Below, one piece after another: positions 51,956 to 59,030 of a stretch of 59,030 nt of DNA (positions are counted from its first letter, which is position 1; every line of letters starts with the position of its first letter). Source of the DNA: Bacteroidetes bacterium HLUCCA01 (lineage in GTDB: Bacteria; Bacteroidota; Rhodothermia; Balneolales; HLUCCA01); the NCBI GenBank assembly GCA_001314545.1, contig LIHN01000007.1, forward strand, positions 183,946-242,975, written 5' to 3'. The translations under genes were made by a program, and so were the position numbers. Under the pieces are notes generated by a model. That model saw only the letters and a program-made list of their open reading frames with translations, was not told the origin of the DNA and ran no database searches.

Positions 51956-52918
51956 TCAGGACTCCTCAGCCAGTTTCCAGGCACCCATCTTGCTGTATTT
52001 ATCAATACGTTGCTCAACCAGCTCATCCGCTGAAAGTTTTTTAAGTCGGTCGAGGGATTCAAGAATTTGTTTTTTCAGCGCAGCAGCCGCTCCGGGACAA
52101 TCGCGGTGGGCTCCGCCAACCGGTTCGGGAATAATACCGTCAATGATGCCAAGCTCCAGTAAATCTGTTGCAGTAAGCTTGAGAGCATTGGCCGCCTGTT
52201 CTTTATAATCCCATGTTTTCCATAAGATAGACGAACATGATTCGGGTGAGATAACCGAGTACCAGGTGTTCTCCATCATGTAAACCTCGTTCCCCATACC
52301 AATACCCAGGGCTCCGCCGCTGGCACCTTCGCCGATTACAATGGTGATAATGGGTACCCGTAATACGGCCATATCTCTGAGGTTACAGGCTATGGCTTCA
52401 GCCTGGCCGCGCTCTTCAGCTTCCAGACCGGGAAAAGCGCCGGGTGTATCAAGCAGGGTTACTACCGGAATACCAAATTTTTCGGCTGTTTTCATGAGTC
52501 TGCGGGCTTTTCTGTACCCCTCGGGAGCCGGCATACCGAAGTTCCGGTATTGTCGCTGGCGGGTGTCGCGACCTTTCTGCTGGCCAATAATCATTACCGT
52601 CTGGTTATCAATGGTTCCGAGCCCGCCCACAATGGCTTTATCATCACCAAAGTAACGGTCACCGTGCATTTCCATGAAATGCTCAACAAACTTATCGATG
52701 TAATCCAGCGTGTACGGCCGATCGGGATGGCGGGCTAGTTGCACACGCTGCCAGCGGGTAAGATTCTTGAAAATACTTTCCCGAAGCTGGTCGGCACGCT
52801 CTTTGAGTTTCTCTATCTCCGGTGCCACCGTGGTTTCATCACCGAGCGTCAGCTCACGCAACTCTTCGATTTTCTTTTCAAGATCAGCAACAGGTTTTTC
52901 AAAATCGAGATAATTCAT
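51956..52918 (-). CDS. accA: Acetyl-CoA carboxylase carboxyltransferase alpha
   Basis: Transfers the carboxyl group from biotin carrier to acetyl-CoA, making malonyl-CoA for fatty acids. The 320-residue protein has the crotonase-like core with [80 protein letters not shown], and [15 protein letters not shown] start at ATG 52918 ([10 protein letters not shown]), the family N-terminus; the longer frame adds 26 residues. accD is not in the window. Confidence 0.96.
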
Positions 52919-53099
52919 CTCAGTAGGCATTAGTTGATGTGCATTAACACGTAAATATACTGCTTTTTGGTTAGTCTGACAGAAATGCTTGGTCAACCCT
53001 CCGGAACGCTACATCAAGGTGATTTACGGTCGTTCGACCTGCCCAGTACAGACATAAAACCGTATAACGGCAATAGTGGCAAGTGTGCAGCCCGCGAGT

Positions 53100-53831
53100 T
53101 TACAGTTTGCCGACTAAACTACGCAGTTTCAGAGCCCAGACCATCCATATGGCCTCCAATACAATAGCCTTGGACATCTTGGATACCCCTTCCGTGCGTT
53201 CGCGGAAGATAACAGAGACTTCTTTAATCCGGAATCCTTTTTTAAAGGCGCGGTAATGCAGCTCAATCTGAAACGAGTACCCGTTCGATTTAATCCGGCC
53301 CAGATCAATGGCTTCCAATACACGTCGATGAAAACATTTAAATCCTGCGGTGGTGTCAAAAACATTCATACCGGTGATGGTCCGCGCGTACACGTTAGCC
53401 GAATAGGAAAGTATGAGCCGGGAAAGCGGCCAGTTGATGATACTTATTCCGTTGTGGTAGCGCGAACCGATAGCCAAGTCAGCCTCGCCAGACCGTACAG
53501 CCTTGACCAAACGAGGAACATCGGCTGGATCGTGAGAAAAATCAGCGTCCATTTCACATATAAAACTGTACGATTTCCCCAAAGCAAACCGGAACCCCTC
53601 CACATAGGCGGTCCCCAGGCCCAACTTGCCGGCTCGTGTGATCAGGTGCACACGCCCCTCGTACTCCTTCTGAAATCCGCGAACCACATCAGCGGTACCA
53701 TCAGGTGACCCATCATCAACAACCAGTACATCGGTCTGTAGATTATCCAATTGCATGAGTACCGGAATCATTTTGGAAATGTTACGGGACTCATTGTAGG
53801 TCGGGATTATGATTAATGTATCTGATTGCAT
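53100..53831 (-). CDS. Polyprenol monophosphomannose synthase-like GT2
   Basis: Family 2 glycosyltransferase that most likely makes polyprenyl-phosphate-mannose or a similar lipid-linked sugar at the inner membrane. The 243-residue protein has IIIPTYNESRNISKMI, VVDDGSPDGT, the metal-binding DAD at residues 95-97 (EMDADFSHDP), GSRY, and the C-terminal YSFQIELHYRAFKKGFRI typical of DPM1-like enzymes. There is no C-terminal membrane domain. It lies 23 bases after the initiating transferase gene. Confidence 0.92.
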   Translation of the reverse strand: MQSDTLIIIPTYNESRNISKMIPVLMQLDNLQTDVLVVDDGSPDGTADVVRGFQKEYEGRVHLITRAGKLGLGTAYVEGFRFALGKSYSFICEMDADFSHDPADVPRLVKAVRSGEADLAIGSRYHNGISIINWPLSRLILSYSANVYARTITGMNVFDTTAGFKCFHRRVLEAIDLGRIKSNGYSFQIELHYRAFKKGFRIKEVSVIFRERTEGVSKMSKAIVLEAIWMVWALKLRSLVGKL

Positions 53832-53854: not shown

Positions 53855-55270
53855 TTACTGGCCCTTACCCCTGACGACGGTGGCAATGGTGTTCAGCAAA
53901 ATTTTAAAGTCCATTCTCAGTGACATGTTCTCCACATAGAACAAATCATATTTCGTTTTTTCGATTACATCCTCCATGGATTCGTCGTATTTCCATTTAA
54001 CCTGCGCCCAACCGGTTATCCCAGGCCTGACACGTAATCGACGGGTGTAAAGCGGTATTTCCTTCTTGAATTTGTTCACAAAATGGGCCCGTTCCGGTCG
54101 GGGTCCTACCAGGCTCATATCTCCTTTTAAAACATTGTACAGCTGGGGGATTTCATCCAGACGAAGCTTCCTGAGCCAAAATCCGAGCGGTGTTATTCTC
54201 GGGTCATTCTCAGTTGCCCATACCGGTCCGCTCCGGGCTTCGGCATCTTCATACATGGTTCTGAATTTGTAAATGATAAACGGTTTGCCATACAACCCAA
54301 GCCTTTCCTGACTGAAAACGGCCGGACCGGGCGAGGTTATTTTGATAAGCACAATCAAAACAAGGAAAAGCGGAGCCGTTACAACCAGAATGCACAGGGA
54401 CAGTATGATGTCGAATGTACGTTTAGTGAATTTTTCCCATGACGGCATCGGATCCGGCATAACCTCAATGAGCGGTAGACCGAAAATCTGGTTGGTCTGA
54501 TTGAGCCCGGTAATCATATTCAAGAAATTGGGAACAATCTTAACCGATACATCCGGCACGTCAATTTCGTCTACAATTCTGATAAGCTTGGCCGTGTCTT
54601 CCTGCTCAAGTGCTGCTATCACATCTTTAACCTGTTCTCGCTGGATGATGGTACGCAAATCGGATAAAGTTCCGATTACAGGAACATCGCCAATAGTGGT
54701 TTCTGCGGGCATTTGATCCGATTCTGATACAAATCCTATCACATTCATGCCGGAAGTCCGATTCCGTTCCAGGTTGTCGCGAATATCACGGGCCATGTGA
54801 CCTGTTCCCACAATAACGGCACGATGTAGCCCCCTGCCCTTTTTCACCTGAACAATCTCATACGTACGAACAACTAAGCGCAATAACCAAACAGACAGAA
54901 ATACGACCAGCCAGTAACTCAGCGTGTAAGTCTTGGCGAATTGAATGTTGGAGTTTGTCCAGCCCAGATTATCTATAAACAGAACGAAAAACAGTATGAG
55001 CGTACCCAGCAAGGTAACCTTGCCCACCCGCAGAAACTCATCAAACCGTGAAATCAGATACAGGTTTTTGTACAGTCCAAAAATCGCAAATACAATGAGC
55101 CAGAACACACAGATAACCAGCGCGGGCACAAACAGGGCGATGGGTGCCTGCGCCGACTCGCCCGGAATGATACCCAGCTCGAATCGCACAAAATAAAATA
55201 GGTACCATGAACCCGTCAGTGCGATAACATCCGCAAAGAACGTGTTCAGAATATTCCTGAATGAATCCAC
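53855..55270 (-). CDS. Polyprenyl glycosylphosphotransferase
   Basis: Initiates lipid-linked exopolysaccharide or O-antigen synthesis by moving a sugar-phosphate from UDP-sugar to undecaprenyl phosphate. The 471-residue protein has several N-terminal membrane helices, a CoA-binding-like cytoplasmic domain (VIVGTGHMARDIRDNLE), and the C-terminal catalytic domain: KRTFDIILSLC, SPGPAVFSQERLG, KFRTM, the catalytic Asp-Glu dyad at 372-373 in LDEIPQLYN, MSLVGPRP, and RPGITGWAQV. All key residues are present. It starts in the 104-base gap divergent from tgt. The sugar is not determined. Confidence 0.94.
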   Translation of the reverse strand: MDSFRNILNTFFADVIALTGSWYLFYFVRFELGIIPGESAQAPIALFVPALVICVFWLIVFAIFGLYKNLYLISRFDEFLRVGKVTLLGTLILFFVLFIDNLGWTNSNIQFAKTYTLSYWLVVFLSVWLLRLVVRTYEIVQVKKGRGLHRAVIVGTGHMARDIRDNLERNRTSGMNVIGFVSESDQMPAETTIGDVPVIGTLSDLRTIIQREQVKDVIAALEQEDTAKLIRIVDEIDVPDVSVKIVPNFLNMITGLNQTNQIFGLPLIEVMPDPMPSWEKFTKRTFDIILSLCILVVTAPLFLVLIVLIKITSPGPAVFSQERLGLYGKPFIIYKFRTMYEDAEARSGPVWATENDPRITPLGFWLRKLRLDEIPQLYNVLKGDMSLVGPRPERAHFVNKFKKEIPLYTRRLRVRPGITGWAQVKWKYDESMEDVIEKTKYDLFYVENMSLRMDFKILLNTIATVVRGKGQ

Positions 55271-55374: not shown

Positions 55375-56502
55375 TTGTTCGAACTCATTAAAACATCCGG
55401 CACCGGAAAAGCCCGTCTGGGTAAACTGACAACCGATCATGGGGTCATCCAAACCCCCATTTTCATGCCCGTGGGAACCCTGGCAACGGTCAAGGGGGTC
55501 AAACAGGACGACCTTAAGTCCAGGATCAGGGCGCAGATTATCCTGGGCAATACCTACCATCTGTACCTGCGACCCGGCAATACCATCATGCGCGCAGCCG
55601 GCGGACTGCATCGCTTTATGAACTGGGATGGTCCCATCCTGACCGATTCCGGCGGGTATCAGGTTTTTTCCCTGGCCGATAATCGCAAGCTTGAAGAGCA
55701 GGGGGCTACTTTTAAAAGCCATATTGACGGCTCAAAACATCAGTTCACTCCGGAGAATGTGGTAGAAACCCAGCGGGTACTTGGTTCTGACATCATGATG
55801 GTGTTGGATGAATGTCCGCCTTACCCCTGCGATGAAGCCTACGCTCGCAACTCCATGCATCTGACACACCGCTGGGCCGCCCGCTGCAAGAATGAATTTC
55901 ATCAGACAAGTGGATACTACGGCCATCAGCAACATCTTTTCGGTATTGTACAAGGCAGCGTATACCCCGGGTTAAGGGCCGAAAGCAGCAAGGTCATAGC
56001 CGACCTCGATTTCCACGGAAACGCCATCGGCGGACTCAGCGTAGGTGAACCCGCACACATGATGTACGATATGACCAACCTGGTAACGGATATTCTGCCT
56101 CAAAACAAGCCACGCTATCTTATGGGTGTGGGAACACCGGCCAATCTGCTGCACAATATCGCACGTGGTGTAGATATGTTTGACTGCGTTATGCCCACAC
56201 GCAATGCACGAAACGGAATGATATTCACCCGAAACGGCACCATCAATCTCAGGAATGCAAAATGGAAGGAAGCGTTCGAGTCGGCCGATCCGGGTTTTGA
56301 CTCCGATCTGTGTTCGCAACACACCCTGGCCTATATGCACCACCTTATCCGGTGTGGGGAGCTACTGGGCATGGAACTGGCTTCCGTACATAATCTCACG
56401 TTTTACCTGTGGCTCATGAACGAGGTACGTAGCCGCATAGCAGACGACACCTTTCATGATTGGTATGAGGGCATGGCTGAAACCCTCGACCGTAGATTAT
56501 AA
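55375..56502 (+). CDS. tgt: tRNA-guanine transglycosylase, Zn-site variant
   Basis: Exchanges guanine 34 for preQ1 in GUN-anticodon tRNAs. The 375-residue protein has the catalytic aspartates at residue 91 (LTDSGGYQVFSL) and 270 (DCVMPTRNARNG). The usual zinc site near the C-terminus is CxCxxC plus a histidine; here it reads F308-D-S310-D-L-C313, so two of the three cysteines are gone, while histidine 339 (SVHNL) remains. Bacteroidota enzymes are known to me to vary here, but I cannot verify how widely. The start is TTG at 55375. No queA or que genes are adjacent. Confidence 0.94.
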   Translation: MFELIKTSGTGKARLGKLTTDHGVIQTPIFMPVGTLATVKGVKQDDLKSRIRAQIILGNTYHLYLRPGNTIMRAAGGLHRFMNWDGPILTDSGGYQVFSLADNRKLEEQGATFKSHIDGSKHQFTPENVVETQRVLGSDIMMVLDECPPYPCDEAYARNSMHLTHRWAARCKNEFHQTSGYYGHQQHLFGIVQGSVYPGLRAESSKVIADLDFHGNAIGGLSVGEPAHMMYDMTNLVTDILPQNKPRYLMGVGTPANLLHNIARGVDMFDCVMPTRNARNGMIFTRNGTINLRNAKWKEAFESADPGFDSDLCSQHTLAYMHHLIRCGELLGMELASVHNLTFYLWLMNEVRSRIADDTFHDWYEGMAETLDRRL

Positions 56503-56513
56503 AAGACGACATA

Positions 56514-58616
56514 CTATCTGCCCTTCACAAATAACGCACGGAAAAGTATGTCGATGTCCATCCAGACGGAATAGTTCTGAACATAGTGCAGCTCGAACAT
56601 TTGTTTCTCTTTCTCGTGGACCAGCCTGCCCTCGTTAATCTGGCGTAGCCCCGTAAGTCCGGGTTTGTAGTAGACCGGGATGTCTTCTCTGATTTCGGTA
56701 ATAGGTGCGCCCACAAAACTGATTTTTCCGGTGAAGATATACCAAAACTGCAGGTATCGGTTCGCCCAGACCGATTTATCATACGGACTCCACAAAAAGA
56801 GCTGGTCATGATGGTTTCGGTCGATGGCAAATTGTACCGGCTTCGGTTTGCCAAAAATCAGTAACGAGCGAAATCCGGTAATTACAAAAACAGGCAAAAG
56901 CAAGACCAGTAAAACCGCTGAAAGAGCCACGTCCATATTTCGTTTAAGAAAAACATTCCATGGGATACGGTAAGACACACGCACGTCCACAACCGGTACA
57001 TCATCGAAGTACTCAACATTGCTTTTCCCGATAATGAAATCCATAGAGTCCGGTACAATTTTAAATTGTACCTCCTCGGAACGAATCTGGGTCATAATGT
57101 TCAGGATTTCTTCGCTTGACACGATACTACCCAGAAATATGAGCTGTTCAATCTTATGAAACCGAACCAGATCCGGAACGTGTTCTGTTCTGCCGATAAC
57201 CCTGACCTTCTCCACTTCATCAACCCAGGTTTCGTTTTTTTGGGCGATGAGGCCCACGATTTCATAATTCCATTCAACCTTTGAGCGTATCAGCGAGAGC
57301 AGGTCGATGGTTTTCGGACCGATTCCAATGAGCAGAACACGCAGCGGTTTAATGGTACCCGAACTGTTGAAACGATTTTTGCTGTAGTTTTTACGGTAAA
57401 AGCGTAGAAGTCCCAGTACTGCGGAGCCAAAGACTGCTCCAAAGAGAAGAATCCATCGGGAGAAGGCGAAATCGCGCAGGAAAAATGTTACAAAAACTAC
57501 ACCGGCAAATGCTACCATCACCGCTTTCACCGATGACGTTACCGAGTAGCGGTTAATACCGTAGAGTTCATAGTAACGCCCCATCGACAGGAATAAAATC
57601 GATAGCAGTCCATTTACTACCAGATAGTTTGGATGGTATTCCTGCAAAAGTTCACCCGGGTTGATCTGGTATCGTATCAGGAAGAAGATAAATACGAGTA
57701 TGTTCAACACCGTCAAATCAACCGTTGCTCCGGCCACGCGCCTGAAAACCGACCCGACGAATGACGTGGTTGCCCGCAAAACGATACCCGCCTTAATAAT
57801 GAGTTTGAACAGGAAACTGTAGGCATAGGAATAGTGCTTGTCGAAGAACTGGTACATGGCCTTGTTGAACATGATCACGTAGTCCAGATTATCTTTTTTG
57901 GTACTCTCTCCTTTGTAGTGGATAATGCTGGTCTGGGGAACATAATCAATGGCATAGCCAAGCAATGTTGTACGGTACGACAGGTCGATATCTTCTCCGT
58001 ACATAAAAAAGCGTTCATCAAAGCCCTTCAGTTTTTTTAATACATCGGTTCGAAAAAACATGAAGGCACCCGACAGAACGGGTACTGGTCCGGCTTCGTC
58101 TTCATCCATCCACCCCAGGTAATAATCTGAAAACTTGCGTGATTTCGGGAAAATGGAGGTCAGTCCCAGGACTTTCCACAGTGCTGATGCCGGTGTGGGA
58201 ACGGATCGTCTTGATTCAGGGGCAAAGGTTCCGTCGGGATTCAGTAATTTGCAACCTGCAGCTCCGGTTTGCGGGTTTTCCTGCATATGCCGGTACATGA
58301 CCAGAAGGGTATCTTCCTTGATGAGGGTATCCGGATTCAAAAGCAGGATATATTCACCGCGTGCGATATGAATTCCCTGGTTGTTGGCCTTGCCAAAGCC
58401 GACGTTACGGGTATTGGCAATAAATTGTATATCGGGGTAACGGTTGGTAAGGTACTCGGGTGAACCGTCGGTAGAGTTGTTGTCAACAACAATTATTTCG
58501 ATGTTCAGATTTCCGCTGGATCGGTTAATTGAGTTGATCAGATTAACAAGGTACTCCTTAACGTTGTAGTTAACGATAATGATGGAGACATGTATTTTCG
58601 GGGAGTCTGAAATCAC
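56514..58616 (-). CDS. GT2 glycosyltransferase fused to degenerate PGT
   Basis: A 700-residue fusion. Residues 1 to about 260 are a GT2 domain of the rhamnosyltransferase/WsbD type (SIIIVNYNVKEYL, VVDNNSTDGS, metal site NPD at 94-96, SGAFMFFRTDVLKKLKGFDERFFMYGEDIDL). Several membrane helices follow (about 295-420), then a nucleotide-binding-like domain (LRVLLIGIGPKTIDLL), then a segment like the C-terminus of polyprenyl glycosylphosphotransferases (LKRNMDVALSAVLLVLLLPVF, ISFVGAP, KPGLTGLRQIN). The Asp-Glu dyad of that family is replaced: the aligned place (about 617-625) reads WANRYLQF. The transferase half is probably inactive and may serve as a membrane or partner-binding module. Convergent with tgt. 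Confidence 0.85.
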   Translation of the reverse strand: MISDSPKIHVSIIIVNYNVKEYLVNLINSINRSSGNLNIEIIVVDNNSTDGSPEYLTNRYPDIQFIANTRNVGFGKANNQGIHIARGEYILLLNPDTLIKEDTLLVMYRHMQENPQTGAAGCKLLNPDGTFAPESRRSVPTPASALWKVLGLTSIFPKSRKFSDYYLGWMDEDEAGPVPVLSGAFMFFRTDVLKKLKGFDERFFMYGEDIDLSYRTTLLGYAIDYVPQTSIIHYKGESTKKDNLDYVIMFNKAMYQFFDKHYSYAYSFLFKLIIKAGIVLRATTSFVGSVFRRVAGATVDLTVLNILVFIFFLIRYQINPGELLQEYHPNYLVVNGLLSILFLSMGRYYELYGINRYSVTSSVKAVMVAFAGVVFVTFFLRDFAFSRWILLFGAVFGSAVLGLLRFYRKNYSKNRFNSSGTIKPLRVLLIGIGPKTIDLLSLIRSKVEWNYEIVGLIAQKNETWVDEVEKVRVIGRTEHVPDLVRFHKIEQLIFLGSIVSSEEILNIMTQIRSEEVQFKIVPDSMDFIIGKSNVEYFDDVPVVDVRVSYRIPWNVFLKRNMDVALSAVLLVLLLPVFVITGFRSLLIFGKPKPVQFAIDRNHHDQLFLWSPYDKSVWANRYLQFWYIFTGKISFVGAPITEIREDIPVYYKPGLTGLRQINEGRLVHEKEKQMFELHYVQNYSVWMDIDILFRALFVKGR

Positions 58617-58869
58617 AGGAAGTTGGTAAAAGAGCAGGCAATAACTATTTCAGTGCAGTGACGACAATTTTTATTGCAGGTAGATTGCATCACGTTAAAA
58701 AATGGCAACGTACCTTCAGCCATCACTTCGGAAGACCTGGTCAGGCGGTAATATATGCAGGTATGAGCAAAAGCGTGGAGTCAAATTATTGGGATTGCCG
58801 TAGGCGATCGTGCGGGGTGTGGATTTTCGCGGGCTCACCCCTGGTGTGTGGTCATCGTACCCATTCGGT

Positions 58870-58920
58870 GGGGTCTGTGGGCAGATGAGAGGAGCGCTGT
58901 CGCCGGGTCTGTGGGCAGAT
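58870..58920. repeat. 17-bp direct repeat, two copies
   Basis: GGGTCTGTGGGCAGATG occurs at 58870-58886 and again at 58904-58920, 34 bases apart, in the G-rich end of the window. Confidence 0.85.
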
Positions 58921-58928
58921 GGGTGCTT

Positions 58929-58991
58929 GGCCTGGCCGTCCGGGCTTTGCGGCTCGCTAGCCGATGTGCGTGCAAGGCCTGGCCGTCCGGG
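58929..58991. repeat. 16-bp direct repeat, two copies
   Basis: GGCCTGGCCGTCCGGG occurs at 58929-58944 and 58976-58991, 47 bases apart. The repeat carries a near-palindromic GGCCTGGCC. The pattern may continue beyond the window. Confidence 0.85.
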
Positions 58992-59030
58992 GAGGGGGGC
59001 TGCTGCTGCCGGGGTGTCGGGGTGGGGTTT

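Follow-up and report, generated by a model that had tools for sequence, protein, structure and literature searches.

Organization of the fused gene and its neighbourhood

The window, a 59,030-nucleotide stretch of a contig from Bacteroidetes bacterium HLUCCA01, encodes on its minus strand (56514..58616) a 700-residue protein in which a GT2 glycosyltransferase is fused to a phosphoglycosyl transferase (PGT) of the large type (Lg-PGT) that lacks the catalytic dyad. This architecture had been proposed in the preliminary description, which gave no strand, and is borne out. The gene begins with GTG, and the start codon is uncertain by a few residues. The protein can be divided into five parts, all on the minus strand: the GT2 domain (residues 8-265; 57822..58595); a linker with membrane helices (residues 266-415; 57372..57821), which is modelled with low confidence and whose counterpart in the WbaP alignment is the membrane region; a nucleotide-binding-like domain (residues 420-522; 57051..57359), which is the CoA_binding_3 domain or DUF of Lg-PGTs; a strongly conserved hairpin segment (residues 531-548; 56973..57026), which aligns with the domain-swap hairpin Asn251-Gln268 of WbaP (PMC10942596); and the PGT remnant (residues 553-700; 56517..56960). 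The remnant comprises the first hydrophobic helix, a deletion of the active-site stretch, and a conserved C-terminal part that contains both KPGLTGLRQINE and YVQNYSVWMDIDIL.

The Pfam profile Glycos_transf_2 matches residues 11-161 of the fused protein (96.9 bits) and CoA_binding_3 matches residues 363-522 (50.6 bits, over the cut-off). The Bac_transf match, at 55.3 bits against a cut-off of 27, is limited to residues 623-696 and to positions 93-175 of the 179 in the profile. The motifs N94-P95-D96, the NPD site described earlier as intact, and E208-D209 are unchanged across 28 relatives; with the profile match, they place the front half in the GT2 family (PF00535). The same NPD and ED motifs are found in the rhamnosyltransferase-type GT2s of TIGR01556, but the match to that model is weak (45 bits), far under its curated cut-off of 200.55, and the GT2 described here is fused to an Lg-PGT half. 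The top NCBIfam matches of the rear half, EPS_sugtrans and WcaJ, are both below their cut-offs. The predicted structure of the fused protein was built from six sequences and is of low confidence (mean pLDDT 57.9); the top Foldseek matches obtained with this model cover the GT2 part, and its PGT half was uninformative.

The membrane region, DUF, hairpin segment and PGT C-terminal part follow each other, by profile match, in the same order as in WbaP of Salmonella enterica (PDB 8T53). Unlike WbaP, the fused protein has Asn-Arg at the position of the dyad, a deleted active-site stretch, and a whole GT2 in front. The membrane region and DUF fold are common to Lg-PGTs and PglF-like dehydratases (PMC10942596), in which the module is carried by another enzyme, a dehydratase instead of a GT2, without a PGT remnant.

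The 1.2 kb that separate the fused gene from an intact Lg-PGT gene (53855..55270, minus strand; 471 residues) are occupied by tgt, which encodes queuine tRNA-ribosyltransferase on the plus strand (55375..56502) and is kept in genomes that have neither of the two genes. The complete PGT had been noted before, with its dyad at residues 372-373. Its D372-E373 (codons at 54152..54157, minus strand) are invariant among six orthologues, and its Bac_transf match is full-length. Further along the minus strand are a gene for a DPM1-like GT2, similar to polyprenyl-phosphate sugar synthases (53100..53831), and accA (51956..52996). Throughout the phylum, no gene accompanies the fused gene more constantly than the latter, which lies within 9 kb in 50 of 58 loci; within the same distance, the PGT gene is present in 40 and the DPM1-like gene in 36 of these loci. 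The gene order in Balneolales is fusion, tgt, PGT, DPM1-like, accA, nadC; in other classes it is PGT, DPM1-like, fusion, accA, nadC; and most of the sampled Rhodothermia outside Balneolales have fusion, accA, nadC.

Individual loci deviate from these arrangements. A CpeT-family gene (L055:12561-13172) separates the fused gene from tgt in genome G005, and the fused gene of genome G035 (L056:9894-12083) is positioned outside the usual block, close to a class V aminotransferase gene. The contig ends shortly upstream of the block at many loci (e.g. L013, L043, L044), as it does in the window (58617-59030), and a long run of N is located upstream of the block in L040-L042; it is perhaps an rRNA operon that breaks the assemblies there.

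The fusion is widespread in Balneolales and in much of Bacteroidota, where it shares a conserved gene block with the intact PGT, the DPM1-like GT2 and accA. A scan of genome contigs identified five relatives, four of them from assemblies named Balneolia or Balneolales. The fusion is mostly present and full-length in the 60 nearest genomes, and 40 further loci from many families mostly encode a fused protein whose rear end is degenerate. Matches were obtained in 111 of 163 good genomes of the class sample and in 251 of 370 of the phylum sample, counted at strict E-values and including short and GT2-only forms. An assembly error or chance fusion joining two genes is ruled out by the recurrence of the fusion in many independent genomes. 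In a set of 24 diverse genomes, Bac_transf is matched over its full length by proteins outside the fused family; the family accounts for nearly all partial matches, in frames about 650-720 residues long. In a tree of Lg-PGT halves, the pseudo-PGTs form one clan with an SH-aLRT support of 100; the only row out of place is a duplicate.

Loss of the dyad and conservation of the PGT half

Active PGTs have Asp-Glu at the position that is occupied by Asn619-Arg620 in the fused protein (56757..56762, minus strand). The Asp-Glu of S. enterica WbaP, in the motif TSLDELPQL of 8T53, aligns with N619-R620 in ANRYLQF, in agreement with the earlier reading that WANRYLQF stands in place of the dyad. A profile alignment to 8T53, which is independent of the alignment of frames and covers WbaP residues 66-354 and 429-517 (membrane region, DUF and C-terminus), likewise replaces Asp with Asn and Glu with Arg, and skips the active-site stretch. 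Asp-Glu is absent from the dyad columns in all 84 fused frames, some of which come from the same genome and were cut differently; the commonest pair is Asn-Arg (33 frames). Some members contain Asp-Glu pairs elsewhere, for instance in the C-terminal motif or within the hairpin region, and none of these pairs is at the dyad position. The dyad is present in 43 of 43 intact PGTs. Forty-five frames were initially classed as such; the two without the dyad belong to the fused family and had been mis-sorted: one is an exact duplicate, and the other (L047) is a frame cut by a contig end. Two features of monotopic PGTs (Bac_transf, PF02397), the catalytic dyad and a full-length domain match, are thus missing from the fused protein. 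Judged by its sequence, the PGT half is non-catalytic.

The hairpin of WbaP was located from the residue numbers of PMC10942596 with an offset of 52 in the 8T53 sequence, which puts Asn251, Ser259 and Gln268 where that study describes them. Few parts of the dead half are as strongly conserved as the corresponding segment. In pairs where the ratio is estimable (silent sites are saturated in the most distant pairs compared), dN/dS is about 0-0.05 in the hairpin segment and 0.03-0.17 in the PGT C-terminal part. Higher values were determined for the first hydrophobic helix (0.09-0.29) and around the deleted stretch (up to 0.41). The sequences thus show that purifying selection maintains the hairpin segment and the C-terminal part, together with the membrane region and the nucleotide-binding-like domain.

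Genomes G042, G019 and G057, family f20 and several families belonging to other classes have short forms of about 400 residues. These forms consist of the GT2 followed by the latter half of the nucleotide-binding domain and end near the hairpin, the start of which is kept; membrane or PGT parts are not detectable in them. In a set of 16 tails, the clearest cases match with E-values of 1e-6 to 1e-10. Other lineages have GT2-only forms. The intact PGT is still there in the Balneolales short-form cases that were checked. Most of the dead half is gone from G042, G019 and G057, which retain GT2, PGT and PorU, so that half is not always needed.

Joint loss with the intact PGT and co-occurrence with type IX secretion

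In the Balneolales family f4, 20 near-complete genomes are without the fused gene, and the PGT orthologue is missing from all 20; it is present in 11 of 11 genomes with the fused gene. The DPM1-like gene is present in all 31. At the loss loci examined, tgt still adjoins the DPM1-like gene (19 of 19), and tgt has therefore lost genes on both of its sides. In a tree of tgt and the DPM1-like gene, the losses count as three: in genus g25, in genera g18, g28 and g30, and in one species of g13. This family has thus lost the fusion together with the intact PGT at least three times; related genomes are not independent, and three is the number of losses counted within Balneolales. The DPM1-like GT2 had been noted together with the complete PGT in the preliminary description. 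It is indeed a neighbour, but it is outside the linked set because it is retained in all 20 genomes that have lost the pair. A phylum-wide O-glycan core (PMC12871550) was considered because of this neighbour, and was rejected, the DPM1-like gene being kept where the pair is lost.

The sortase PorU and PorZ, which are associated with the type IX secretion system (T9SS), track the fused gene in 35 of 35 genomes of this comparison: PorZ over the cut-off and PorU were found in 15 of 15 carriers and in none of 20 non-carriers, three of the loss genomes having sub-threshold PorZ-like matches. The number of T9SS C-terminal signals per genome is 37-99 in carriers and 5-32 in non-carriers. PorU is encoded elsewhere in the genome, outside the fused-gene block; in the genome of the window, PorZ and PorU are on other contigs (C16, C21). 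In a phylum sample of 394 genomes, PorU is present in 224 of 226 strong carriers and in 33 of 168 others, with strong and weak matches split by E-value and form after both lists had been seen. As 33 PorU-positive genomes are without a strong match, the gene does not accompany T9SS universally. When weak and GT2-only matches are added, the table of match against PorU reads 230, 29, 27 and 108. The fused gene thus shares with a GtfC-like gene of the T9SS linker pathway its co-occurrence with PorU, PorZ and an initiating PGT. The joint loss of the fusion and intact PGT with PorZ and PorU is a new observation.

In family f4, a PorZ gene is positioned directly upstream of the fused gene at several loci (L043:88-2421, L051:278-2620, L052:5200-7524, L238:10496-12850 and others), and a small extra GT2 of about 220 residues is often also found directly upstream. 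Because of this adjacency, the joint loss of porZ and the fused gene may represent one deletion. PorZ is not a phylum-wide neighbour: among the loci searched, it is near the fused gene solely in f4, and the other classes are without it there.

Proposed function of the fused protein

The fused protein is probably a membrane-bound GT2 combined with a catalytically dead large PGT that functions in one pathway with the intact PGT, serving the T9SS anchor glycan. We infer the shared pathway and its link to T9SS from the joint loss and the co-occurrence. WbaP and GtfC have been proposed for the first two steps of T9SS linker synthesis in Porphyromonas gingivalis (PMC13086638, PMC7468200), the second sugar being assigned to a glycosyltransferase of this kind (PMC13086638), and PorZ binds A-LPS and PorU (PMC8545088). 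By type and distribution, the pair described here fits these two steps: in both cases an initiating PGT and a second-sugar glycosyltransferase are tied to cargo anchoring by PorU and PorZ. It differs from the P. gingivalis enzymes in that the second one bears a dead PGT half and is encoded near the PGT. The earlier assignment of the GT2 to the second sugar is in line with this published analogue. FpgA of F. psychrophilum (PMC4293000) was also considered, and no evidence of it being the same gene was found.

In the proposed mechanism, the intact PGT would load a sugar phosphate onto undecaprenyl phosphate, and the GT2 domain, which the dead half would keep at the membrane, would then attach the second sugar, possibly rhamnose or another deoxyhexose. 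Extension of the resulting und-PP-disaccharide would yield the linker that PorU attaches to cargo proteins. The DUF of WbaP is a uridine-nucleotide sensor, and the hairpin mediates dimerisation of WbaP, which is a homodimer (PMC10942596). By analogy, the dead half may serve as a membrane anchor and uridine-nucleotide sensor that dimerises via its hairpin, with itself or with the intact PGT. If the T9SS link is true, the two genes are conserved candidates for the first two anchor-glycan steps outside oral pathogens, and the full dead half, the short tail and its absence form a natural series for probing the function of pseudo-PGTs.

There is a nearly even chance that the dead half is self-sufficient: as a homodimer, it would tether the GT2 domain to the membrane and control its activity in response to UMP or UDP, and its only connection with the PGT would be the shared pathway. 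The nucleotide-sensing DUF and homodimeric state of WbaP agree with such a role, as do the short forms, from which the membrane and PGT parts are missing but not the latter half of the nucleotide-binding domain or the beginning of the hairpin. However, short forms without membrane helices need no anchor.

It appears rather unlikely that the dead half docks on the intact PGT in a heterodimer formed via the domain-swap hairpin, an arrangement in which attachment of the second sugar would immediately follow initiation. The conservation of the hairpin is consistent with docking, and the two genes adjoin and disappear together. However, a coarse partial-correlation check of 31 pairs, which has low power, gave no sign of cross-pairing: the pseudo-PGT hairpin scored 0.43 with its own nucleotide-binding domain and 0.36 with that of the PGT, and the PGT hairpin 0.45 with its own and 0.24 with that of the other protein. 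Furthermore, the PGT persists in species without most of the dead half and is not adjacent to the fused gene in much of Rhodothermia. The scaffold suggested in the preliminary description therefore stands in part. A half that is non-catalytic by sequence, under purifying selection and lost with the PGT at least three times agrees with it; the heterodimer obtained no support from covariation of the 31 pairs, at low power, and some lineages are without most of the dead half. A broader version, in which the first two sugars of the T9SS anchor glycan are attached in much of Bacteroidota by a single complex of an active Lg-PGT and a dead Lg-PGT that bears the next glycosyltransferase and acts as partner subunit and uridine-nucleotide sensor, is doubtful.

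An indirect link to T9SS is unlikely. Lineages losing T9SS could have changed lifestyle and shed several surface-glycan genes, this pair among them; no more than three independent losses were counted within Balneolales, and the strong match is absent from 33 PorU-positive genomes. However, the DPM1-like gene and other neighbours were retained, and the separately encoded PorU follows the same pattern both in family f4 and in nearly all strong carriers of the phylum. Least probable is a decaying, functionless relic of a formerly bifunctional GT2-PGT enzyme, which would explain the repeated shortening to 400-residue forms in several lineages and to GT2 only in others, but not the low dN/dS over most of the dead half, the high conservation of its hairpin and C-terminal parts, and its wide retention across the phylum.

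Neither fused dead PGT modules nor a T9SS anchor-glycan pathway outside oral pathogens was found described in the papers searched; since these are an open-licence subset of what is published, the absence of a prior description is no proof of novelty. Two other frames with unusual PGT regions were encountered. A 648-residue frame (L195:1355-3298) has a terminal Bac_transf match (profile positions 36-171) as its only Pfam domain. Another unusual PGT fusion, a 568-residue frame (L196:1220-2923), combines a nucleotidyltransferase domain and a hexapeptide-type region with a weak Bac_transf match (profile positions 7-177).
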